DNA of 24,949 nucleotides from a virus: the IMG/VR virus record IMGVR_UViG_3300017967_000193, positions 1-24,949 of that record; one strand, written 5' to 3'. Below, piece after piece: positions 9,632 to 24,949 of the stretch. The notes beneath the pieces are model-generated. The model worked only from the letters and a program-made list of their open reading frames with translations. It was not told where the DNA came from and did no database searches. The stretch's first letter is position 1. The number at the start of each line of letters is the position of its first letter. The translations under genes and the position numbers were made by a program.

Positions 9632-12600
9632 ATGGCAATTAATTTAAATTCAGCACCATATTTCGACGATTTCTCTGAAGGTAAAAAGTTTCAGAGGATT
9701 CTTTTTAAGCCAGGTGTTGCTGTACAAGCAAGAGAGCTAACACAGCTACAAAGTATATTGAGCAACCAAGTTTCTCAATTAGGAACCTATGTTTTAAGAG
9801 AAGGTACCATTGTCTCTGGTTGTAAAGAAGATTTAGCGGATATTGATTGGATTAAAATTAATGATACAGATATTAATGGTATAGATTTAGCAGATGAAAC
9901 TCTTGCTGGATATGTCAATGCTATTGTTGTAGGAAGAACAACAGGTATACAAGCCAAAGTCCTAGAAGTTGCAACAGGCACACAGGCGGAAGCACCTGAC
10001 ACAAAAACGTTTTATATTCGATACACATCAGGCGACACTACAGGAACTTATCAAGTATTTCAACCAGGAGAAGTATTAGACATTTATTCTAATACCTCTA
10101 GTTTAAATAATTCAACAGTGGTGGTTGGAAGTTCAACGGGTGTAAGTGAAAACAGTTATTACGGAACATCAAGAAAAATAACACTTTCTCCCGGGTTAAT
10201 TTATATAAACGGTGCCTTTGTACAGTCCAACCAAATATCAACTTATCTTCACAGATATTCTCACGAAGATAAATTAATTAATGTTGGATTTACTTTATAT
10301 GAAGAAATTATAAACTCAGGTGAAGACAGCTCGCTGTTAGATCCGGCAGCTGGATCTTATAACGAAAACGCACCGGGTGCAGACAGACTTAGATATACTA
10401 TAGGCTTAACATCTTTCACCACTAACGTTAGGGGTGCAGACACAGGCATCATACAGCCTGAAAACTTTGTACAGTATGGGCAATACCAATTTGGTTCGCC
10501 TACTGTAGTACAAACAAAAACTGATCCTTTTAACGCTTTAGGTAAAGAGTTAGCAAAAAGAACATACAACGAATCTGGTGATTATGTTGTAAGAGGATTA
10601 AAAGTTACAGTACAAGAACACTTGAATGACGGAGAAAATTCTGGATTCTTTACATCTGCAGAAGGAGGAGATGCAACAAAACTCCTAGTAAATATTGATG
10701 CGGGTGAAGCTGTTGTTGCTGGGTATCCTAGAAGACTAGAGCAAACAAAAAGAATAGAGATTAATAAATCAACAGAATACAAATATGTTGAAGGTGCTTC
10801 TATTGGAACAGCATATGGCAATTATGTTTTGGCAGATGAAGTTTATGGATTGTTTGATGTCGATGGTGGCGGTAGAGTAGATTTATTAGACACCGCACCT
10901 GGGTTTATTACATCAGGAACAAGCACAGGAAGCGTAGTAGGTAAAGCAAGAGTAAGACATATAGCTTTAGAAGAAGGAACACCTGGTTTAGCATCAGCAA
11001 AATATAGAATATATTTGTATGATATTCAAATGCTCAACGGCCCTTTTACATCCGTAAGAGGCTTGCATTTTGATCACGCACAAACCGATGGTTATGCAGA
11101 TCTTATTTTAGAAGATACAACAGGAGATGGTACTCCTGACAGCGCCGTATTAAAAGAAAATTCTTTCAATAAAATGTTATGGAAACTTCCATACAATGCT
11201 GTTAAAAACATGGCAACAGACAACGGTGGTTACGATTACTCCTTTATCTACAGTAGAGAGTTTGATGTAACTGCAGATAGTTCTGGTAACGTAGAACTAG
11301 ATATTAGCTCTAGTAGCACACAATATAATTTGCCAAACGACACATTCCCATATTCAAGTTTCACACAAACTGTGATTGAAGACAATTTCTTAGCAGTTGC
11401 TAGAGAACAGGTAATCCTCGGTGGTATTACTTATGCTGCAGGTGAGCATATTGATTTATCTGGAGCAACATTTACTTTAAATAGCTCTAAGCACATCACA
11501 ATTAATTTAGGTGTTTTAACGGGATCAGCAAACCAAGTTCGAGTATATGCAAATCTACAACATATTGATGGAACTCCTGCATCTAAGTCTTTACAGTCAG
11601 ATAAAATTGTAACATTTAACGTTGCAGCCCACCCTAAAGGAATCGGTGGACCTTGGAGTCTAGGGGTTGCAGATGGTTTTCAAATTAAATCTGTATATGC
11701 ATCTGCCAACTCAAACTTTAGCAGTCCTATAGATGTTACAAATCAATTTACAATGGACAACGGACAAAAGGACAGTTTTTATGGACATGCAAAGTTAGTT
11801 AAAAAGAAAACAGCGTCTGTAAATCTTTCAACATATCCTTATTTACAAGTAACATTTGATTACTTCTCACACTCTTATAGTACAGCATCTTTCTTCTGTA
11901 TTAATTCTTATCCCGTAGATGATACAGGAGCTACTGGAATTAAAACTGAAGAAATACCACTGTATAAGTCCAAGTATTTTGGAAATATGGATCTTAGGGA
12001 CTGTATTGATTTTAGGCCTATGATGCAAAGCACTGTTACGCCAACATCAACACTTGCGGGCGCGCCTTTAAATCCTTCGGAAGTAGAAATAATTTTTAGA
12101 CCCAATACAGGGTTAACTAATCCTATTCCAACAGAACAGTTTACAACAGATTTAGAATACTATCTAGGCAGAAACGCAATTATTGTTTTAGATGAACATG
12201 GCGAGTTTAGAGTAATTGAGTCAGCTTACTCTGCTAGTCCCAAGTTCCCACAAACCCCAGAAGCAAGCATGAAGTTGGCTTCCTTTAACTTGCCGCAATA
12301 TCCATGTTTGTCGGCAAAGGCAGCTAAGAGATTAAACAGATACGATTACGATATTGTTGTAAAACAGTCAGACAATAGACGTTTTACAATGAGAGATATT
12401 GGTGTTTTAGAGAAAAGAATTAAAAATCTAGAATATTACACTACATTAACTTTGCTAGAAAAGGCAGCAGAATCTTTACAAATTACAAACGCTAACAGTG
12501 GATTAAATAGATTTAAAAACGGCATACTTGTAGATAATTTTACAGGACACTCTGTAGGAGCCGTAGAAGATCCAGATTATCATTGCTCAATGGATTTTAA

Positions 12601-15600
12601 GAAGAAGCATTTGCGTCCGTATTTTTATAGTGAATCTTTAGACGCAGACATGGATTGGACAAATACCACAGCACAAACAGCCTGGGCTTGGGAGTCAGGA
12701 GATTCTGGACTTTGGGCAACAATTCCATATGAAGGAACAAGATTGACAGCTAATATGTTTGCCAGCCAACCTAAGAACCTAGTTTCTGAATTACTGTTTA
12801 ATTACAGAGGAACCTGTACTTTGTCTCCTTCAGTAGATAACTGGGTAGACACAGATACTGCACCAGAAGTTTCCGTAGAGTTTAGTGGAAATTATGATGC
12901 TTGGAAAAAGATGGAAGACGCTTTCGGTACTCAATGGGGTGACTGGGAGGACGTTGGAGCAATGACAAAGGTTGAGACCGACCGAGAAACTATTACAAGA
13001 CAGGTTGACAATGCAACGGGCGGTTCCGATTCATTTATTACATACACTACTAGCCAAAATCAAACAAGAAGTGGAACAACAATAGATGTTTCTGAAGGAG
13101 GTTTAGAATCTTATTCTCTAGGAAACATGGTAGTAGATACATCAATCTTGGGCTATATGAGGCCTAGAGTAATTCACTTCCACTTGAAAAATATGAAACC
13201 AAACACAAGAGTTTATCCTTTCTTTGATGGTGTTAATGTTTCACAATACTGTGGAGCCACTGCAAGATTACAAGAAGGAGGAGTTCCTAAACCGCAAACA
13301 CCGATTAGGTTATCAGGCCAGTCTGTAGATACAGGACAATATGCTACATTTGCTGCAGAAGATCCCGCAACAATGGCATTGCCGGGTACGGATAGAACTT
13401 GGGTTTATCCTAATCCAGGTGGCTCTTTAGTTACGGATTCTGTAGGTTCTTTATACGGATACTTTAGGGTACCTGCAGGAGTTTTCCAAACAGGCGTCAG
13501 GGTTATGATGTTTACTGACGATAGTTTAAATAGAGATAGGTTTACGACAACGTCTTGTGAGGCAACATTCCAAAGCTCTGGAATGTCCCAGACAAAACAA
13601 AATACAATCGTTTCTACAAGAACTGTAAATGTTACAAAAAATACGGTTACAGATGATAGAGTAGTAACAGATAAAGTATATGAATATGTGGCGGGTGGCG
13701 GTGTTCCTTTACCTCCTCCTGAGATTATTCCTAATCCTATTCCTATTCCGAATTATGTACCTTGGCCGGTAACAACTGTTATTTTTGAACCAGCAACCTT
13801 TGATCCAGATTTGGATTGGACTAGAATTGATCCTCCTCCAAGAACGCACACACTATGTTTTATTGCGGGAACAGAAATTTTAATGGCAGAGAATGGCGTC
13901 AAACCTATTGAAGAGATTGAAGCGGGGGATAAAGTCGCAGGTATAAGTGGGTTAGCAGGTAAGCACTATACAGTAAATACTGTAGTTAAGGTTCACCATA
14001 TCACAGAAGCGCCGCAGGATATATTTCAAATTAACGGCGTTGGTGGTGTAACACCCGGTCACCCATTTATGACAACAGATGGATGGAAATCTATTAATCC
14101 AGACATAACAAAAGAAATAGGTGTATACGAACAATACAATTTAGAAGTTAGTAAGTTAGAAGTTGGTGATAGAATTATTTCTATTGAACTTGATGGCACA
14201 GTTTCAGAAAAAGAAGTTACAAGTATTCAATGGATGGGACTGCAGACAGTAAAAGTATATAACTTTGAAACAGATGGCTCGCACAATTACGTGGCGAACG
14301 GAATGGTTGCACACAATAAGACAACCCAACAGCCTGTTCCCCCACCTGCAGGGCCTGCAGATCCTCCTCCAGCAACACCAGAGCCTCCGGTAGCAACACC
14401 AGAACCTCCAGCTGCCACACCAGAGCCGCCAGTTATTCCTCCGGCGCCTGCTCAAACACCTTGGTCTTTTGTTATTCCAGATCTATCGATTAGAATATGG
14501 GACGACCTATGGATTGGTGGTGGAGAACGCGGTTGGGGCTGGGGATATCAAGATCCTCTAGCACAAACATTTAGAGTAAGCGGAGAATCTGGGGGCGTAT
14601 TCTTACGGGACGTTCAACTATATTTTAGAACTGTCCCAGATCCAGCATATGAATGGGCAGAAGTAACTTTACAAATAAGAGAAGTTGTCAATGGTGTTCC
14701 TGGCGAGAAGGTATTGGGAAGTTGCACTATGAGCAACTGGGAGATTACACCGTCTGAAGAATCTGAGGGGGGTGCAGTACAGTTTGTACCGTCGATGTTT
14801 AGATTTAATAAGCCCGTTTATCTTTTGAACGAGACAGAATACTGTTTTGTTCCAATCCCCGCTAACAACAACCCAGGTTGGGAAATATGGATTTCAGAAT
14901 TAGGAGAATTCCAAGTAGGAACAGAGACAAGAATTGCTAAACAACCTCATAATGGTATTATGTTTACATCTGCCAATAATGTTTCTTGGACTCCTCAACA
15001 GTCTTTAGATATGATGTTTGCAATTAACAAGTGTTCATTTGAAGTTGGTTCAGGTAGAGAACTGCACATAAGAAATGCGACAAGAGATTATATAAAACTT
15101 AGTGACCCTAGCAAGTATAATTCTATCCAACCACGCCATATGATACATACTGTTAAGGCATCTGTAACAAGTCCAGGTGCCGGTTATACTAGCACGCCTA
15201 CTATAACTGTAGAGTCTGTCTTTGATGGTACAAATAAAGGAGTTACTCTTGAGGCGGTAGTTGATACTGTTACAGGAGAGATGACAGGTGTCAATGTTAT
15301 TAGCGCTGGAACAGAAACGGTGGCTTGGTGGGACAATTTAACAGCAACCGTTACTGGTGGTGGTGCTACTCAAGATGCAACCGTAGATATATTCGTGGTT
15401 AATGGAGATATTATACAAGTTCATCCATTAAGAGAATATCTTGAGGTGGAAACTTGGTCTATTAATTCCTTTACAGGTTATATCGGTGGAGCGGCTAATG
15501 ACGTAGCATTTGAACCAGGAGATAAGATTATGATCGGACCTTGGTTTGGAACATCTGATATCACCAATGATGAAATAGAAAGCATTGACAGTAGATATAT

Positions 15601-16621
15601 TGATGCATTAGCTATTTCCAAATCTATAGTAGAGCCACCTGGCACATCTGTACAAGCATATTACAAATTAAGAGATACTGCAGGAACACAGGATTCCAAT
15701 TGGACAGCGTTTGAGCTGGGAAGAACAGAGGAACTTTTAGAAAGAAGAATGGTTAGATCTATTTCTAATATTTACACTTCTGAAGGAGACAATGCAGATG
15801 CTAGAGATGTTGCTGTAAAATTAGTTTTAAGCACAAACAATCCTAATGTATCTCCATTAGTTGATACCTTACAGTTAAATCAATTAATATTTAAAAATGA
15901 TATTGATGATGTTTATACCAATGAAGATCAAAGAAGCGGTGGAGATGCTCGTTCAAGATATATAACTAGGAAGGTTATATTGGATGAAGGACAAGATGCA
16001 GAAGATCTAAATGTGTATCTATCCAACTCTCTACCAGCAGGTACAGATGTAAAAGTATATGGCAAGTTCTTAAACGGACAGGATAGTGGTGAATTATTTG
16101 AAGATGCATACTGGATACCTTTACAACTCCAAGGCGATTTAGCTAGAGAGAATAGTAACGTTACAGGAGCTCAACAGGATTATGTTTATTCAATACCTGA
16201 AAAAGCACCGGGTGATTCTTACGGATTAAATCCAACTAGCTTAAAGTTTGAGTATGATGTAGATGTTATTGATAGTATAACACTTTCAACACCAGGTGTT
16301 GGGTACACTTCACAACCTTCTGTAACAATAGAACACTCAGGGAATGGCTATGGAGCAACAGCGGTTGCTAATGTTAATACGGCAACTGGTTTAGTAACAG
16401 GCATAGACATTGTAAATCCTGGAAGAGGATATACAGGCGGTACCGTAACAGTAACAATTTCTGGAGGAGGTGCTTCGGTAGATGCTACAGCAACGGCAAG
16501 TCAAACAACTATTACTTACACCTCTTATAAAGAGTTTGCAGTGAAGATTGTGCCAATATCCTCACAACCAGCAAAAGTTCCTACTATTAAAGAACTTAGA
16601 GCTATTGCATTACAGGCTTAA
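9632..16621 (+). CDS. Giant DUF4815-type baseplate/fibre protein with embedded Hint domain
   Basis: A 2329-aa protein in the gp9/gp10 position. The N-terminus (NSAPYFDDFSEGKKFQRILF, GVAVQARELTQLQSILSNQV) is the hallmark of the DUF4815 virion proteins of marine myoviruses. Other family segments are RTYNESGDYVVRGL (about 310), MDLRDCIDFRPMM (about 787), RDIGVLEKRIKNLEYYTTL (about 921) and LKNMKPNTRVYPFFDG (about 1186). A proline-rich stretch (about 1357-1407) leads into a Hint domain at 1409-1562, then a second proline linker (about 1565-1610). The structural part resumes at DPLAQTFRVSGESGGVFLRD (residues 1641-1660). Glycine repeats occur at 1841-1926 and 2211-2290. An AGGA ribosome-binding site precedes the ATG. 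It probably forms the baseplate rim or a host-contact fibre. If the Hint domain is active, the protein would be cut into pieces of about 1408 and 767 residues, or spliced. Confidence 0.88.
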   Translation: MAINLNSAPYFDDFSEGKKFQRILFKPGVAVQARELTQLQSILSNQVSQLGTYVLREGTIVSGCKEDLADIDWIKINDTDINGIDLADETLAGYVNAIVVGRTTGIQAKVLEVATGTQAEAPDTKTFYIRYTSGDTTGTYQVFQPGEVLDIYSNTSSLNNSTVVVGSSTGVSENSYYGTSRKITLSPGLIYINGAFVQSNQISTYLHRYSHEDKLINVGFTLYEEIINSGEDSSLLDPAAGSYNENAPGADRLRYTIGLTSFTTNVRGADTGIIQPENFVQYGQYQFGSPTVVQTKTDPFNALGKELAKRTYNESGDYVVRGLKVTVQEHLNDGENSGFFTSAEGGDATKLLVNIDAGEAVVAGYPRRLEQTKRIEINKSTEYKYVEGASIGTAYGNYVLADEVYGLFDVDGGGRVDLLDTAPGFITSGTSTGSVVGKARVRHIALEEGTPGLASAKYRIYLYDIQMLNGPFTSVRGLHFDHAQTDGYADLILEDTTGDGTPDSAVLKENSFNKMLWKLPYNAVKNMATDNGGYDYSFIYSREFDVTADSSGNVELDISSSSTQYNLPNDTFPYSSFTQTVIEDNFLAVAREQVILGGITYAAGEHIDLSGATFTLNSSKHITINLGVLTGSANQVRVYANLQHIDGTPASKSLQSDKIVTFNVAAHPKGIGGPWSLGVADGFQIKSVYASANSNFSSPIDVTNQFTMDNGQKDSFYGHAKLVKKKTASVNLSTYPYLQVTFDYFSHSYSTASFFCINSYPVDDTGATGIKTEEIPLYKSKYFGNMDLRDCIDFRPMMQSTVTPTSTLAGAPLNPSEVEIIFRPNTGLTNPIPTEQFTTDLEYYLGRNAIIVLDEHGEFRVIESAYSASPKFPQTPEASMKLASFNLPQYPCLSAKAAKRLNRYDYDIVVKQSDNRRFTMRDIGVLEKRIKNLEYYTTLTLLEKAAESLQITNANSGLNRFKNGILVDNFTGHSVGAVEDPDYHCSMDFKKKHLRPYFYSESLDADMDWTNTTAQTAWAWESGDSGLWATIPYEGTRLTANMFASQPKNLVSELLFNYRGTCTLSPSVDNWVDTDTAPEVSVEFSGNYDAWKKMEDAFGTQWGDWEDVGAMTKVETDRETITRQVDNATGGSDSFITYTTSQNQTRSGTTIDVSEGGLESYSLGNMVVDTSILGYMRPRVIHFHLKNMKPNTRVYPFFDGVNVSQYCGATARLQEGGVPKPQTPIRLSGQSVDTGQYATFAAEDPATMALPGTDRTWVYPNPGGSLVTDSVGSLYGYFRVPAGVFQTGVRVMMFTDDSLNRDRFTTTSCEATFQSSGMSQTKQNTIVSTRTVNVTKNTVTDDRVVTDKVYEYVAGGGVPLPPPEIIPNPIPIPNYVPWPVTTVIFEPATFDPDLDWTRIDPPPRTHTLCFIAGTEILMAENGVKPIEEIEAGDKVAGISGLAGKHYTVNTVVKVHHITEAPQDIFQINGVGGVTPGHPFMTTDGWKSINPDITKEIGVYEQYNLEVSKLEVGDRIISIELDGTVSEKEVTSIQWMGLQTVKVYNFETDGSHNYVANGMVAHNKTTQQPVPPPAGPADPPPATPEPPVATPEPPAATPEPPVIPPAPAQTPWSFVIPDLSIRIWDDLWIGGGERGWGWGYQDPLAQTFRVSGESGGVFLRDVQLYFRTVPDPAYEWAEVTLQIREVVNGVPGEKVLGSCTMSNWEITPSEESEGGAVQFVPSMFRFNKPVYLLNETEYCFVPIPANNNPGWEIWISELGEFQVGTETRIAKQPHNGIMFTSANNVSWTPQQSLDMMFAINKCSFEVGSGRELHIRNATRDYIKLSDPSKYNSIQPRHMIHTVKASVTSPGAGYTSTPTITVESVFDGTNKGVTLEAVVDTVTGEMTGVNVISAGTETVAWWDNLTATVTGGGATQDATVDIFVVNGDIIQVHPLREYLEVETWSINSFTGYIGGAANDVAFEPGDKIMIGPWFGTSDITNDEIESIDSRYIDALAISKSIVEPPGTSVQAYYKLRDTAGTQDSNWTAFELGRTEELLERRMVRSISNIYTSEGDNADARDVAVKLVLSTNNPNVSPLVDTLQLNQLIFKNDIDDVYTNEDQRSGGDARSRYITRKVILDEGQDAEDLNVYLSNSLPAGTDVKVYGKFLNGQDSGELFEDAYWIPLQLQGDLARENSNVTGAQQDYVYSIPEKAPGDSYGLNPTSLKFEYDVDVIDSITLSTPGVGYTSQPSVTIEHSGNGYGATAVANVNTATGLVTGIDIVNPGRGYTGGTVTVTISGGGASVDATATASQTTITYTSYKEFAVKIVPISSQPAKVPTIKELRAIALQA
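13856..14317 (+). other. Hint (intein-like, BIL type) self-processing domain inside the giant protein
   Basis: Residues 1409-1562 form a 154-residue Hint unit with no endonuclease insert. Block A starts at Cys1409 (CFIAGTEILMAENGVKPIEE) and continues with IEAGDKVAG. Block B is TPGHPFMTTDGW with its T-x-x-H histidine at 1477. A later block is LEVGDRIISI. The end is FETDGSHNYVANGMVAHN, closing in His1561-Asn1562. Inteins end in HN followed by Cys, Ser or Thr. Here the next residue is Lys, with Thr at +2 and +3, as in A-type bacterial intein-like domains that cleave rather than splice efficiently. The catalytic Cys, His and terminal His-Asn are all present, so autocatalytic activity is plausible. 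Confidence 0.9.
14372..14434 (+). repeat. Three 21-nt repeats encoding ATPEPP-V/A linker
   Basis: Three consecutive 21-nt units encode ATPEPPV, ATPEPPA and ATPEPPV (residues 1581-1601). They differ mainly at third codon positions. They form the core of the proline-rich linker that follows the Hint domain and should give an extended, flexible arm between the Hint domain and the C-terminal structural region. Confidence 0.9.
15152..15409 (+). repeat. GxGYxxxP glycine-rich repeat block in the giant protein, first copy
   Basis: Residues 1841-1926 contain VTSPGAGYTSTPTITVESVF, then a linking V-T-G-E-M-T-G-V-N-V-I-S strand pair and TATVTGGGATQDATVDI. This is the shared tail repeat, with the second half more diverged. 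Confidence 0.75.
16262..16501 (+). repeat. GxGYxxxP glycine-rich repeat block in the giant protein, second copy
   Basis: Residues 2211-2290 contain ITLSTPGVGYTSQPSVTIEH and IVNPGRGYTGGTVTVTISGG. The linking segment V-N-T-A-T-G-L-V-T-G-I-D-I-V matches that of the first copy (V-D-T-V-T-G-E-M-T-G-V-N-V-I), so both blocks descend from one two-repeat unit. Confidence 0.8.
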
Positions 16622-17390: not shown

Positions 17391-18737
17391 ATGAGGCCGT
17401 TAAGAATTAAAGCATCGGGAACACCGATCACATCAAGCAATTTTACAGGATTGCAGGAAATGACAGATGGAGAGATACAACAGTATCTTTCTTACGTTTT
17501 AACAAACAAATTTGCTACAGATACAGATGGCACAGGAACAGGAGAATTAAATGTTGATGGTGCTTCTGGTACATCTATAGGTACTTTTACAAATACTATT
17601 AGACAAGATTCGATAGGCTCACATCCTACAGCAGGAGCTACAAGTAGTAACACATATACCTTTAAACAGGTTACATCTGCGGCCTCAGAAAGTATTACTG
17701 CAAGACCTGCGGGTTATGATTCAGGTGTAAAACAAATGTCTGATTCTGCCATTGATACAGATATTTTAGATAAAGCATTGTCTGATATGGTTTCTGAATC
17801 TGATTATACTGTTGGACAGTATGTGTTGCAACCATCTGCCCCTACAGGTGGTACTTGGACTTCTAGATATACGATCACAGATACCGCACAAGGCGGAAAT
17901 AATAACACATATCTTTGGCAAAAAACAGCACCCACATCATCTGCAAACTCTGATTTAGCTTCTGTTAAAACAGATGGATCATCTATTACACAGATGACAG
18001 CAGCAGAAATTGAGCAGATGGTTCCTAACTTTAGAAATAGAATTATTGATACCGGCGTAGGCACATATAAAGTTCAAGCAACGGCGCCGACGTCTGGTGG
18101 AACTTGGGTACAGATGGGATCACAGTTTGATGATACAAGACAAGAGGTTGCATCTGAAAACTACGTAGGAGCATACACAGGTAATTATTCTGGTTCTTAT
18201 GTAGGTGCTTACGTAGGTGCGAAAACATATTCCGGAAACTATTCCGGTTCTTATGCAGGTAACTATGTTGGTGGTTATGTTGGTTCCAAAACATATTCTG
18301 GAAACTACTCAGGCAACTATTCCGGTTCTTATCAAGGTAACTATGTTGGTACTTCTGGGTATTCTGGATCTTACTCTGGTTCTTATCAAGGCAACTATGT
18401 TCTTTATTACTCTGGATATGCACATGCTACATATACAGGATACTATAGTGGAACATATACAGGTTATTACACAGGACCTAAAACTTATACTGGTTATTAC
18501 ACCGGCACTTACACTGGATATTTCACAGGCAACTACGTAGGAACTTCTACTTATTCTGGAACTTATACAGGATACTATAGTGGAACATATACAGGCCACT
18601 ACGTTGGAACATCTGCTTATTCAGGAAGTTATACTGGGACTTATACAGGATACTATAGTGGAACTTATGCAGGTGACACGATTCAGGCAACTACTGAAAC
18701 AGTATCTAGCATTAAGCTTTGGATAAGGACAGCATAA
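17391..18737 (+). CDS. Fibre protein with C-terminal Gly-x-Tyr-x repeat domain
   Basis: A 448-aa protein started by ATG after AGGGGA (17379-17384). Residues 1-250 contain related segments: LQEMTDGEIQQYL (21-33), VKQMSDSAIDTDIL (113-126) and ITQMTAAEIEQMV (199-211). The last two are followed by similar phrases, GQYVLQPSAPTGGTW and GTYKVQATAPTSGGTW, so this half is built from diverged repeats of about 86 residues. Residues 258-428 are an almost uninterrupted array of four-residue G-x-Y-x units rich in Ser, Thr and Asn, and the last 20 residues are ordinary sequence. Related low-complexity arrays occur in marine phage fibres, so a host-contact or shaft role is likely. A glycosyltransferase lies about 700 nt downstream. 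The array is unlikely to be a globular enzyme. Confidence 0.75.
   Translation: MRPLRIKASGTPITSSNFTGLQEMTDGEIQQYLSYVLTNKFATDTDGTGTGELNVDGASGTSIGTFTNTIRQDSIGSHPTAGATSSNTYTFKQVTSAASESITARPAGYDSGVKQMSDSAIDTDILDKALSDMVSESDYTVGQYVLQPSAPTGGTWTSRYTITDTAQGGNNNTYLWQKTAPTSSANSDLASVKTDGSSITQMTAAEIEQMVPNFRNRIIDTGVGTYKVQATAPTSGGTWVQMGSQFDDTRQEVASENYVGAYTGNYSGSYVGAYVGAKTYSGNYSGSYAGNYVGGYVGSKTYSGNYSGNYSGSYQGNYVGTSGYSGSYSGSYQGNYVLYYSGYAHATYTGYYSGTYTGYYTGPKTYTGYYTGTYTGYFTGNYVGTSTYSGTYTGYYSGTYTGHYVGTSAYSGSYTGTYTGYYSGTYAGDTIQATTETVSSIKLWIRTA
18162..18674 (+). repeat. Array of about 40 Gly-x-Tyr-x codon repeats
   Basis: Residues 258-428 repeat G-x-Y-x with x mostly Ser, Thr, Asn, Val, Ala or a second Tyr. Longer sub-blocks such as YSGNYSGSY and YTGYYSGTYTG recur, separated by breaks of the form GxKTY or GTSxY. 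Near-identical DNA stretches (ACAGGATACTATAGTGGAAC) appear at about 18436, 18567 and 18648, so the array has expanded by unequal recombination or slippage. Confidence 0.9.
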
Positions 18738-20177: not shown

Positions 20178-20824
20178 GATGGATAAACGTCGGTGAAGAA
20201 TTATTAGAAATTCTAACACCATATTCAGATTGGTTCTTTTCTCAAGACTTAACTGAACTAGAGCAATCTATAGATACTAAAAGAGCAGGAGATGAAACTT
20301 TAGAGACTGCCTGCGGTGAAGAGTATCTTAAAATGATTGTAGAAAAAGATGGAGAACACATAGGATATCCAGAACATACTAGATCCATAGATATTTTAAT
20401 GGATGGAAGAGCACCTAGAGAACACAGGGAAGCCTGTCAAAAACTTAATCAAGAGCTTTGTTCTTATTTAGGTGCTAGAAATCAAGCAGTTCAAGTTTTT
20501 TATCCTAAAGATGGTTTCATGGGATGGCATAATAATTGGAATGCACATGGTTATAATATTTTGTTATCTTGTACTCCTAATGGAAACGGATTTTTTAGAT
20601 ATAGAGATCCGTTGACACACGAAATAATAACAATGAAAGATAAGCCTGGCTGGACTGCTAAGGTTGGTTATTACGGAAGGGGAAGAGAGCCAGACAAAGT
20701 TTATTATCATTGTGCTGGCTCACATGAGCCACGTGTAACTTTAGGGTTTGTTATTCCTAATGCAGATATGTGGAGAAATATGATTGAGGACATATCTGGG
20801 GAAGACGCCTCGATGTTTAGTTAA
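20174..20824 (+). CDS. Candidate 2OG-Fe(II) oxygenase-like protein
   Basis: A 216-aa protein coupled by an ATGA overlap to the glycosyltransferase. The C-terminal half resembles the double-stranded beta-helix of 2-oxoglutarate/Fe(II) oxygenases found in T4-like marine phages: QVFYPKDGFMGWHNNWNAHG, a GFFRYRDP strand, then YYHCAGSHEPRVTLGFVIP. The proposed metal ligands are His119 and His179, with Arg187 in RVTLGF as the 2-oxoglutarate anchor. The usual H-x-D motif reads H-N-N here, so the acidic ligand is replaced by Asn121. It may use an alternative ligand, or it may not be a hydroxylase. Substrates could be protein side chains or a small molecule. The stop shares TTAA with the convergent Fe-S carrier gene. 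Confidence 0.55.
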   Translation: MRWINVGEELLEILTPYSDWFFSQDLTELEQSIDTKRAGDETLETACGEEYLKMIVEKDGEHIGYPEHTRSIDILMDGRAPREHREACQKLNQELCSYLGARNQAVQVFYPKDGFMGWHNNWNAHGYNILLSCTPNGNGFFRYRDPLTHEIITMKDKPGWTAKVGYYGRGREPDKVYYHCAGSHEPRVTLGFVIPNADMWRNMIEDISGEDASMFS

Positions 20825-21204
20825 ATATTTATTGCTGTAATTTTATTTGTATCTATTTCAACTTGTTCTAAGTCAAAGTTTATACTCACCCCACACCCAC
20901 AAGAATCCTTTTCCTTAGGGTTTACAAATTTAAAAAATTCATTTAGACCTTCTGTTTGCCAATCTAATGTCATTCCCACTATGTAAGGTATAGATACTTT
21001 ATCTATTACTACGCCGAACCTACCATAATCAACAAATATATCATCAGACATATCGCCGTTATCATTAATAGAGTCGAAAACGTATTCAAAGCCAGCGCAA
21101 CCTCCGCCTGTAATTCCGAGTCGGATGTTTTTAAAGCCGTCTTTTTCTTGTTTTTCAAGAAGTTTCTGTATCGCATTATCTGTGATTTCGATTACGCTAG
21201 ACAT
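20821..21204 (-). CDS. A-type iron-sulfur cluster carrier (IscA/HesB/ErpA family)
   Basis: A 127-aa protein with the full A-type carrier signature: GGGCAGFEY around Cys36 and the C-terminal SCGCGVS with Cys102 and Cys104, giving the Cys-x65-Cys-x-Cys spacing of IscA-like proteins. These proteins receive Fe-S clusters and hand them to target enzymes in the cytoplasm. The typical N-terminal ITDNAIQKLLEKQ helix and a DSIN loop are present, but the middle is diverged from bacterial copies, so IscA, SufA or ErpA cannot be told apart. It is the last gene of the minus-strand cluster. The gap to the upstream methyltransferase is 14 nt, nearly filled by a TATAAATA motif. A radical-SAM protein at the head of the same cluster is an obvious potential client. 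Confidence 0.93.
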   Translation of the reverse strand: MSSVIEITDNAIQKLLEKQEKDGFKNIRLGITGGGCAGFEYVFDSINDNGDMSDDIFVDYGRFGVVIDKVSIPYIVGMTLDWQTEGLNEFFKFVNPKEKDSCGCGVSINFDLEQVEIDTNKITAINI

Positions 21205-21896: not shown

Positions 21897-22560
21897 CTTC
21901 TTTTCTTCCCATTGAGTCAAATAGACAAACGTAGGGAATTTGTCTATAGACGTGTGTTTCTATATCATGTGGGTATATATATCCTACGTTATAACTATAT
22001 GCCCATCCTATAGGAAAATATTTAATTCTAGCCACACCACGATGGTGGAAAAAATTATCTATTCCTCTATAATACCATAAAATTTGTTTTATATGTTTTT
22101 TAAAATACAATGTTATTTCTTCTGTATTTAAATTGTCGTTCCAACGTAATACAGAAGAGTTTAAGTCTGTATACTTATGAGGTATATGCCTTGTTTCTTT
22201 ATACTGCGTTTCCATGTCGTGCCAATGTGTTTTTAAAAAGCACAAACAATCCTCGGGGTCGTAATTAACAAGCTCATCTATATTTCTTTGTATAATAATG
22301 TCCAAGTCAAAGAATAATTTTTCTCCTTTTTGTCTTACAACATTCTCATCAAACAAATACATTTTATTCCACCAAACTTCTAATTTATTATCGTTTGGCA
22401 ATGGAATAACTTTTATATCCTCGTGTAAGTTTTTAGGATCTTCTGTTAAACAATAAAAATTAAAGTCGCAGGTTATAAACTTTTTACAACTATTGTAAAT
22501 AGCCTCAACGTGCTTGGGGGAATATTTTGTTCCCCATTTAACTGTATAGATGTTTAACAT
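21877..22560 (-). CDS. GT-A type glycosyltransferase-like protein, paralogue of the gene at 23164-23976
   Basis: A 227-aa protein from the ATG at 22560 (an upstream TTG at 22566 would add two residues). It begins NIYTVKWGTKYSPKHVEAIY, continues with FNFYCLTEDPKNL and DIKVIPLP, and has KLFFDLDIIIQRNIDEL at about 81-97, whose Asp85 and Asp87 form the D-x-D motif. The same landmarks occur in order in the 270-aa protein upstream, so the two are duplicates, and this copy lacks about 40 residues in the middle. It overlaps both neighbours (7 and 20 nt) and is expressed as part of the chain. The donor and acceptor are not predictable from sequence alone. Confidence 0.75.
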   Translation of the reverse strand: MLNIYTVKWGTKYSPKHVEAIYNSCKKFITCDFNFYCLTEDPKNLHEDIKVIPLPNDNKLEVWWNKMYLFDENVVRQKGEKLFFDLDIIIQRNIDELVNYDPEDCLCFLKTHWHDMETQYKETRHIPHKYTDLNSSVLRWNDNLNTEEITLYFKKHIKQILWYYRGIDNFFHHRGVARIKYFPIGWAYSYNVGYIYPHDIETHVYRQIPYVCLFDSMGRKEDVKLEL

Positions 22561-23174
22561 TCCCAATATATCACTTTGTTTGTTGCAGATTGTTTGACTA
22601 TTGTTTTTCCTAAATAATCTGCTGCTAAATTAATACCTATAGTACATTCTTTTTGCCATAATTGTTGTTTATCAAAACCTTCAAAATAATCATCTACAAC
22701 CATGTAACTTGCTTTAGGCGACCAGTAGATTAAACTATTAAAAGTAGAGTTTTTGTCATGTGCTGCATCATAATACACTATATCGTAAGTCCCTCTACTG
22801 GCTCGGTGTTCGTTCCAAAATATTGGGTAGCTGTAAGGAATCTTCTTATGACTAATATTGTAGTCTTTCGTGTTCTTTAAAAAACACTCATAATTTTTTT
22901 TGTTTTGTCCTTTCTCTTCCTCAAACATTTTCCAGACAAAATTTGATGTTGTTGTTGGACTATTATCCCAACAGTCTAAACATTCCACAGAATACTTTAT
23001 TCCCTTTTTAATACAAATCTCGGACCAAGCAACTGCAGACGCTCCTTTCCAACTTCCAATTTCTAGTATATGTACTTCGTCTTTGCCCAACAAGTTAATA
23101 ACATTTTCAAATACTTCATAATCAAAAACATTACTTATTTCAGGACTTAACTTTACAATTTCTTCAAAGTTCAT
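22554..23174 (-). CDS. Class I SAM-dependent methyltransferase (Methyltransf_24-like)
   Basis: A 206-aa protein. HILEIGSWKGASAVAW at residues 35-50 is a clear SAM-binding loop. YSVECLDCWDNS at 61-72 supplies the acidic residue after the second strand. YDIVYYDAAHDKNSTFNSLI (130-149) followed by YMVVDDYF (147 onward) has the D-A-x-H and D-D motifs of the Methyltransf_24 family, which often acts on sugars or other small hydroxylated acceptors. The ATG at 23174 has GGA about 11 nt upstream and lies inside the last codons of the preceding glycosyltransferase (11-nt overlap). It is one of two alternating glycosyltransferase-methyltransferase pairs and is not obviously a paralogue of the other methyltransferase. 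Confidence 0.82.
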   Translation of the reverse strand: MNFEEIVKLSPEISNVFDYEVFENVINLLGKDEVHILEIGSWKGASAVAWSEICIKKGIKYSVECLDCWDNSPTTTSNFVWKMFEEEKGQNKKNYECFLKNTKDYNISHKKIPYSYPIFWNEHRASRGTYDIVYYDAAHDKNSTFNSLIYWSPKASYMVVDDYFEGFDKQQLWQKECTIGINLAADYLGKTIVKQSATNKVIYWEC

Positions 23175-23976: not shown

Positions 23977-24215
23977 GATGTCTCCGTCAGGTTTTGTAGA
24001 ATAAAGTCTCTGCCGTACATCAAACCATAATTTACAAGTTCACATACAATATTGCTAGATGTATCGTCAAACTGTTCCCTGGGACCTTTAACTACAATAG
24101 AAACAAACCTGCCTCCTCTTACAGAATCAATAACGAAGTCTGTATCCTCATTATTCCAATCATTAAAGGAACCCATATATGCGGTTGACTTTCTTATTTC
24201 TCTTGTCGTGTTCAT
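23973..24215 (-). CDS. Small unknown protein in the modification operon
   Basis: An 80-aa protein. An ATG at 24230 has no ribosome-binding site, whereas ATG at 24215 has GGAG (24226-24223) 7 nt upstream and overlaps the radical-SAM stop as ATGA, so the shorter start (MNTTREIRKSTAYMGSFNDW) is chosen. The sequence is soluble and mixed in charge, with a probable beta hairpin at about 31-46 (SVRGGRFVSIVVKGPR) and a helix near 52-65. No family is recognised. Overlap on both sides ties its expression to the radical-SAM protein and the first glycosyltransferase, so a helper role for one of them is possible. Confidence 0.7.
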   Translation of the reverse strand: MNTTREIRKSTAYMGSFNDWNNEDTDFVIDSVRGGRFVSIVVKGPREQFDDTSSNIVCELVNYGLMYGRDFILQNLTETS

Positions 24216-24949
24216 TTTAATACTCCACATTTTTTATTACAAATTAGACTAGGATCTAATTTTAGTTTGTTGGTAAAGTAAGATGTGAAAAATTTGTTAG
24301 TGAATATTTTTTTCAATCCGTGTACTTTACAGTTATTACTTTTCCAATCGTACAAAATATCTGTTTCCTCGTAAGGATTTATTTTTGCTACTAATATGTT
24401 TTTAGCAGTAAATACACATGGAAAAACGTTTCCTTCTTTATCAATATAGGCCTTGTTTTCTATTTTTGCTAAGCATCTTACTTGTTTATCAAATTTTACC
24501 TTAACGTCTAAATACTCAGCGTCTTTTTGCCTAAGTTTGATTGTCTCCAACTCTATTAACTTGTAGTCAGGCAAGTCTTCTTTTTCCTCTACCTCTACTA
24601 CATTTATTTTTTCTTCGACTTTATTTTCAATAAAGTTAAATCCTGAGAACTTATGTTTTTTAGAAAGTGCTTTAGCTTTCTCTATGTCCTCATCTGTTTG
24701 TGTTGTTCTAGTGTATTGCCAAAATACTCTAGCTCCACTTTGTAACAATGCCTCAGCATTTGACATCTGTTTTTCTATTTCTCTATTATATATGTCGTTT
24801 ATGGTTACTGTGATGTTTCCCATATTTTTAAATAGTATGCCTACTGTTCCCCACCAATACTTGTCAAAGTTTGTTAAATCTGTTAGTAAGTCAATACTAA
24901 TATTTCTTGTTTCCATTAGATATTCACATATATCATAAAAGTCTTTACA
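24212..24949 (-). CDS. Radical-SAM-like protein, C-terminal part
   Basis: A frame of 234 codons starts at ATG 24916, but the frame stays open to the window edge, and the residues before that ATG (DFYDICEYL) fit the family, so the gene very likely starts outside. The visible part resembles the second half of radical-SAM proteins of phages: NISIDLLTDLTNFDKYWWGT and NITVTINDIYN match the 'TNGS..W..L' and 'SIDG' strands, and GARVFWQYTRTTQTDEDIEK matches the segment before the final barrel strands. The C-terminus has AYIDKEGNVFPCVFTAK and CNKKCG, as in SPASM-like extensions that bind further Fe-S clusters. The C-x3-C-x2-C cluster site would lie in the missing part. The substrate is unknown. Confidence 0.65.
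   Translation of the reverse strand, partial: CKDFYDICEYLMETRNISIDLLTDLTNFDKYWWGTVGILFKNMGNITVTINDIYNREIEKQMSNAEALLQSGARVFWQYTRTTQTDEDIEKAKALSKKHKFSGFNFIENKVEEKINVVEVEEKEDLPDYKLIELETIKLRQKDAEYLDVKVKFDKQVRCLAKIENKAYIDKEGNVFPCVFTAKNILVAKINPYEETDILYDWKSNNCKVHGLKKIFTNKFFTSYFTNKLKLDPSLICNKKCGVLK

Follow-up and report, generated by a model that had tools for sequence, protein, structure and literature searches.

The window, a stretch of 24,949 nucleotides of viral DNA (IMG/VR record IMGVR_UViG_3300017967_000193) from a phage known through metagenomes alone, encodes a VrlC-type baseplate protein with a Hint domain in its proline-rich hinge. Sequence and structure prediction suggest that this domain resembles the A-type BILs and would mainly divide VrlC into two chains, perhaps with some amine-driven ligation, a reading to which we assign a probability of about 0.5. 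The domain is best filed as a BIL-like variant. Its interest lies in the host protein, in relatives with a separate gene for each half and, above all, in the recurrent lysine at the +1 position (Lys+1).

Position, residues and predicted fold of the Hint domain

The open reading frame of the host protein (9632-16621; 2329 residues) holds the Hint domain at 13856-14317, corresponding to residues 1409-1562 (154 residues); these and all features of vrlC given below lie on the plus strand. In the translation, Cys1409 (13856-13858) is the first residue of the domain, block B reads T1474-x-x-H1477 (14051-14062), the F-block His is His1551 (14282-14284), and the domain ends in His1561-Asn1562 (14312-14317), with Lys1563 at +1 (14318-14320). 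The features of the HINT superfamily, namely Cys1, the block-B TxxH and the terminal HN, are all present. An earlier sequence-only reading had proposed the domain boundaries, C1409, H1477, H1561-N1562 and K1563, together with fragments of 1408 and 767 residues on either side, and each of these was exact when read on the translation of 9632-16621; T1474 and H1551 are present beyond the residues listed there. Its view that the domain retains what the acyl shift and the cyclisation of Asn require, and that it is BIL-like rather than a canonical intein, agrees with our analysis.

When the full-length protein was searched, six Pfam Hint/intein-type profiles and TIGR01443 (intein_Cterm, spanning residues 1541-1562) matched the domain stretch. 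Most Hint/intein profile scores on the full protein were below the curated cut-offs; intein_Cterm reached 23.6 bits, above its cut-off of 15.6, and Vint scored 30.5 on the excised domain, above its cut-off of 27. The match to a Hint domain is confirmed as not due to chance. The GC content of the Hint stretch (0.383) is similar to that of the host gene and thus gives no sign of recent transfer.

The AlphaFold model of the domain, calculated from a 35-row alignment of viral Hint domains, was confident (pLDDT 94.3, pTM 0.88). When the model was compared with solved structures (Foldseek, VIA-align), the nearest was Tetrahymena BUBL1 BIL2 (6y75, 6tmm), with Z 21.1, an rmsd of 1.7 Å, 137 aligned residues and 30% identity. 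RecA and DnaB inteins came next (Z about 18), the C. thermocellum BIL 2lwy, a domain of the A type, was level with them in the structure ranking (Z 17.7, 33% identity), and Hedgehog 1at0 gave Z 17.4. Judged by their titles, all 50 entries listed were inteins, BIL domains or Hedgehog domains, with Z of 12.9 to 21.1 over residues 1-154. The best PDB matches by sequence (phmmer) were 2lwy (E 2.8e-6) and BUBL1 BIL2 (E 3.4e-6 to 4e-6). A Hint fold is therefore predicted with confidence for the domain; a modelled fold shared with BIL2 is no proof of activity.

The baseplate protein VrlC and its variable hinge

The host protein was identified as VrlC from its matches to DUF4815 (PF16075, E 2.3e-45), phrog_358 and phrog_877. 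The genes upstream match gp6-, gp8- and other baseplate-wedge families; the order of vrlC after gp8 is also annotated in OC and Mosig, and the neighbour in Melnitz-3 is a baseplate wedge subunit. As judged from its sequence, the host is a T4-type baseplate protein of the VrlC/DUF4815 type, which has family, gene order and both of its parts in common with the VrlC/DUF4815 proteins of pelagimyophages, cyanomyophages and phi812. The N-terminal portion, which is the predicted N fragment (9632-13855, residues 1-1408), contains the DUF4815 stretches and matches the phi812 baseplate protein (9euf chain 0) by sequence with E 1.4e-19. The C-terminal portion (14552-16618) begins at a conserved D1641 (DPLAQTF). 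In the AlphaFold model of residues 1630-2329 (pLDDT 84.6), the first 9 residues were disordered and order began at about D1641, and this model predicts that the C part folds by itself from there. Foldseek matched this predicted C part to 9euf chain 0 with E 1.7e-9, but with a TM-score of 0.33 and an rmsd of 14.9; all of its matches with E < 0.001 were phi812 baseplate chains.

A second strain-level assembly (L011, a 162,417-bp contig) showed this arrangement too and differed from the window by 16 mismatches in 24,949 bp. Ten of the 16 were in vrlC, giving five amino-acid changes, and none was in the Hint or the linkers; the 16 differences between the two strains are too few for a selection test on the Hint. 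Each of two Hint/intein profiles gave one match on the 162,417-bp contig, in both cases the VrlC Hint. Elsewhere in the window, a protein with many YSG/YTG-type repeats is encoded at 17391-18737 (plus strand), with coding tandem repeats of 24, 54 and 66 bp, and an iron-sulphur cluster biosynthesis protein, here in a phage, at 20821-21204 (minus strand; PF01521, E 3e-12). Methyltransferase-like and SPASM-like genes follow vrlC at 22554-23174 and 24212-24949 (both minus strand), the SPASM match being just below the cut-off.

The Hint domain lies between two proline-rich linkers, one at 13667-13855 (about residues 1346-1408) and the other at 14318-14539 (residues 1563-1636); in the latter, a 21-bp unit is repeated in tandem at 14358-14432. 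Both linkers, and the placement in the hinge of a baseplate protein, had been read from the sequence alone, and our analysis supports them. The site was compared in 88 relatives, made up of the best 80 viral contigs of a longer list, seven phage isolates and L013, several of the contigs being incomplete. In contrast to the window VrlC, none of these 88 relatives gave a Hint match, either in phmmer searches with the domain (E up to 10) or with N- and C-terminal block profiles (E up to 1). The stretch before DPLAQTF measured 0 to about 285 residues in the relatives and consisted of proline repeats, Asn/Thr-rich repeats or other inserts. The N-side proline linker was missing in the seven aligned phage isolates; L014 (48% identity in the best segment) had a PLPPP-type linker similar to that of the window, without the Hint. 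In L029, L035 and L070, a different insert of about 105 to 285 residues occupied the same site; a DUF4214-like identity, suspected by eye, was without a Pfam match.

A single open reading frame held both flanks in 77 of the 88 relatives, where the site was short, empty or otherwise filled. In three contigs the halves were separate adjacent open reading frames at the insertion site, with stop codons between them. The first frame ended at 17400 in L028, with a proline-rich tail, and the second started from an ATG at 17422; the corresponding positions were 3450 and 3496 in L077, and 14400 and 14417 in L084, where the split is less certain since the identity of the N half came from a tblastn span and the N flank was without a match in the flank search. 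The N flank was found alone in L016, L033, L048 and L053, whose frames run off the contig end, and flank matches were absent in L054, L056, L059 and L078. An apparent split VrlC of Sinorhizobium phage phiM12 in the match list was actually one open reading frame. These findings show that a break at the hinge is tolerated, not favoured, with 77 continuous and three split relatives.

No second VrlC with a diverged Hint was found among 78 Hint-profile loci, in which VrlC flanks were seen for the 162-kb contig only. Among 50,697 annotated phage records there were 20 Hint matches; helicase, terminase, portal and hypothetical protein were the usual annotations, and none was annotated as VrlC. In the parts of the literature covered by our searches, no description of a Hint in VrlC or in any baseplate protein was found.

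Lysine at the +1 position in other Hint domains

IMG/VR was scanned with a DNA pattern of the C-terminal end of Hint domains in which the +1 position was free (scan 1). Among the 119 in-frame matches listed, the +1 residue was Cys in 34, Ser in 32, Thr in 27, Lys in 15, Arg in 5, Ala in 2, Gly in 2, Leu in 1 and Met in 1, so that Lys was the commonest residue other than Cys, Ser or Thr (15/26 of those listed). Seven of these 15 listed Lys cases ended at that Lys, three being near-copies, and HN directly before a stop was not seen among the scan-1 matches listed. Removal of near-copies and the requirement for a recognisable N-terminal block gave a non-redundant subset of 40 of the listed matches. 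In this subset, the 21 Hints shorter than 200 residues had Lys (9), Arg (3), Cys (3), Ala (2), Gly (2), Thr (1) or Met (1) at +1, compared to Cys (9), Ser (7) or Thr (3) in the 19 Hints of at least 200 residues; among the matches listed, Cys, Ser or Thr was thus found in 19/19 long and 4/21 short Hints. In a wider set, 21 of 24 long Hints had one of these three residues. Compared to a background of 6%, nine Lys among the 21 listed short Hints correspond to a binomial P of about 1.4e-6. These sequences are related to one another, though, and looser clustering left Lys in 6 of 17 clusters of the matches listed.

A second scan was made with the A2 profile, whose pattern ends before +1; its rows are mostly Lys+1, and it re-finds many of the contigs obtained with a Lys-specific pattern. 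The 80 HN ends in scan 2 were followed by Lys (43), Cys (26), Ser (6), Thr (2), Ile (1), Met (1) or Gly (1), and Lys accounted for 43 of the 46 residues other than Cys, Ser or Thr, with 21 of the 43 ending at the Lys. The Lys-specific pattern itself gave 69 stretches, 68 of which, together with L212, made up a set of 69 in-frame Lys+1 open reading frames. Of these, 26 ended exactly at the Lys and formed 8 clusters, one with 14 members; in 9 the stretch counted from +1 was shorter than 30 residues, and in 34 it was longer. The presence of HN in these matches proves nothing, since HN is part of the search pattern. In the 29 Lys+1 rows of A2, Cys1 was kept in 28 (Ser in the other), Thr66 in 29, His69 in 28 and the F-block His in 19, and the catalytic positions were among the most conserved columns across distant Hint homologues. 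Prokaryote genomes, bacterial and archaeal, yielded 32 Lys+1 stretches (L276-L307; Omnitrophota and Myxococcales, for example), one ending at the Lys, and Lys+1 is therefore not confined to phages. The +1-free pattern was found in 3 of the 282 genomes in the phylum of L294, a Polyangiaceae record; each had Lys, at loci already in the Lys-pattern set. Together, these sequence comparisons indicate that Lys+1 is recurrent in short phage Hint domains and so need not be a defect.

Several hosts of other Lys+1 Hints resemble tail proteins. The host in L104 is a tail assembly protein (phrog_32), similar to lambda gpI, that in L215 is a Phage-tail_3 protein, those in L266 and L222 have weak to moderate tail-fibre matches, and L100 resembles PAU gp269, with three aligned homologues lacking the Hint. 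The L100 gene (5742-8150, minus strand) also has poly-Gly runs at other loops, missing in the three aligned homologues. Among 18 host proteins compared with PHROGs, several matched Hint-type families only. Tandem Hints, two or three per phage protein, were seen in L129, L153/L260, L219, L231 and L099. In all of these five types but L231 the last Hint is HN-Lys-stop; that of L231 has Lys+1 and a stretch that, counted from this Lys, is 183 residues long. In the L243/L256 family of the wider set, a Lys+1 Hint of a phage protein precedes another Hint-like end, which is more diverged and stops right after HN. In a tree, Lys+1 labels cluster (9 changes compared to 26.5 in shuffles), near-copies contributing and columns being few, and the tree does not establish a single origin of Lys+1. 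The window Hint was nearest to L129/L219 (support 94/76, not starred), a placement that is not fixed.

Predicted processing of VrlC and alternative outcomes

The window domain is like the A-type BILs (C. thermocellum, 2lwy) in its Hint fold, size, lack of a +1 nucleophile, hypervariable position and His-Asn end. It differs in its +1 Lys, recurrent in the phage set, and in its host, a conserved phage baseplate protein, whereas the BIL hosts are non-conserved bacterial proteins; A-type BILs are expected at hypervariable places in proteins that are not conserved, and here the site is hypervariable, yet VrlC itself is conserved. In PMC7765530 and PMC7664689, the A type is defined by a C-terminal His-Asn without Cys, Ser or Thr at +1, and the domain has His-Asn followed by Lys. 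Blocks A, B, F and G and the His-Asn end are shared with canonical class 1 inteins, but the window domain has Lys1563 in place of Cys, Ser or Thr, is without an endonuclease, and lies in a hinge variable in length and content rather than in a conserved motif. With Hedgehog Hog it shares the fold and, as expected, Cys1 thioester chemistry; unlike Hog, it is internal, ends in His-Asn and, at 154 residues, has no room for a sterol-recognition extension.

BUBL1 BIL2, the best structural match and among the best by sequence, is reported to lack a +1 nucleophile (Chiarini 2021). Both domains lie between two independently folded parts (for BIL2, PMC9200820), and PMC8616854 describes BIL2 as splicing by a Lys epsilon-amine isopeptide bond and conjugating its ubiquitin-like flank to other proteins. 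The sequence-only reading had predicted cleavage from the Lys at +1; the residue is indeed not Cys, Ser or Thr, but cleavage alone does not follow from it, as BIL2 is reported to splice without a +1 nucleophile. BIL2 is eukaryotic, with ubiquitin-like flanks and a zinc pair (H48/H125), whereas the window domain is from a phage and its activity is predicted. The zinc pair is not fully kept: H47/H48 are present, and N136 stands where H125 aligns, as does Asn in 27 of the 29 Lys+1 rows of A2.

According to the preferred reading, after translation Cys1409 would take the preceding peptide bond as a thioester, aided by T1474/H1477, and Asn1562 would cyclise, aided by H1561 and H1551. With Lys at +1 instead of Cys, Ser or Thr, the usual branched ester could not form, so that the main outcome would be release of the 154-residue domain, with VrlC as chains of 1408 and 767 residues that would remain together in the baseplate; a part might be re-joined by attack of the Lys1563 amine on the thioester. 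The activity, its timing, the dominant product and the retention of both chains in the virion are what we infer, and the retained residues, the modelled fold and the conservation argue for the activity. Two chains are the first choice because a break at the hinge is genetically tolerated and because cleaved products are said to predominate for BILs that lack a +1 nucleophile (PMC7664689). The two chains of the sequence-only reading are plausible, as in three relatives, one of them less certain, each half has its own gene here; its 'maturation or host-attachment switch' found no direct support. In the searches made, neither biochemistry nor virion proteomics on the window VrlC was found. If the cutting is true, a conserved baseplate protein would be matured by a built-in domain, without a protease, and virion models would need two chains. 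The recurrence of Lys+1 is unexplained if the domain merely cleaves.

That recurrence would suit a different outcome, in which the alpha- or epsilon-amine of Lys1563 attacks the Leu1408 thioester after the acyl shift and Asn cyclisation, giving a continuous VrlC with its hinge. We consider such cis-splicing rather unlikely. It is consistent with the single open reading frame holding both flanks in most relatives, and an A-type BIL carrying Ala at +1 was reportedly able to splice (Dassa 2004). The isopeptide splicing reported for BIL2 (PMC8616854) also favours it, but a review states that A-type BILs are unable to ligate their flanks (PMC7765530). This statement conflicts with the result attributed to Dassa 2004. 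Moreover, the site is a non-conserved linker at which ligation would be unnecessary, up to three relatives are split, and in 26 of the 69 Lys+1 open reading frames the Hint is followed by nothing but the Lys. Such HN-Lys protein ends are explained by neither cleavage nor cis-splicing. By analogy, a broader and more doubtful proposal is that phage tail and baseplate BIL-like Hints are marked by Lys+1, often as the last residue, and that the amine of this Lys, or one that it mimics, would resolve the thioester into peptide or isopeptide bonds, re-joining, cross-linking or attaching tail proteins, VrlC included. If ligation is true, it would be a self-contained route to covalent links in the virion; with the recurrent Lys+1, HN-Lys-stop ends included, a role of the +1 Lys can be tested directly, and many natural short Hints become available to ligation chemistry.

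Transfer of the N portion of VrlC, activated as a thioester, to an amine on another virion subunit or on the host surface, cross-linking the baseplate, appears improbable. The conjugation reported for BIL2 (PMC8616854) and the many C-terminal phage Hints ending in HN-Lys-stop, a layout closer to Hedgehog than to inteins, point towards it, but an acceptor is not known, the thioester would have to escape hydrolysis, and the zinc-site H125 of BIL2 is Asn at position 136 of the window domain in an alignment read by eye. It is just as improbable that the Hint fold is non-catalytic and kept for spacing or binding; the other inserts and repeats at the same VrlC site in relatives would fit such an inert role, but all catalytic positions are kept and are highly conserved in distant homologues. 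Seamless splicing by a canonical mobile mini-intein, although in line with the Hint fold and the intein profile matches, is very improbable given the Lys at +1, the non-conserved hinge in place of a conserved motif, the length of 154 residues without an endonuclease, and the confinement of Cys, Ser or Thr at +1 to 4 of the 21 short Hints, as against all 19 long ones, among the matches listed.
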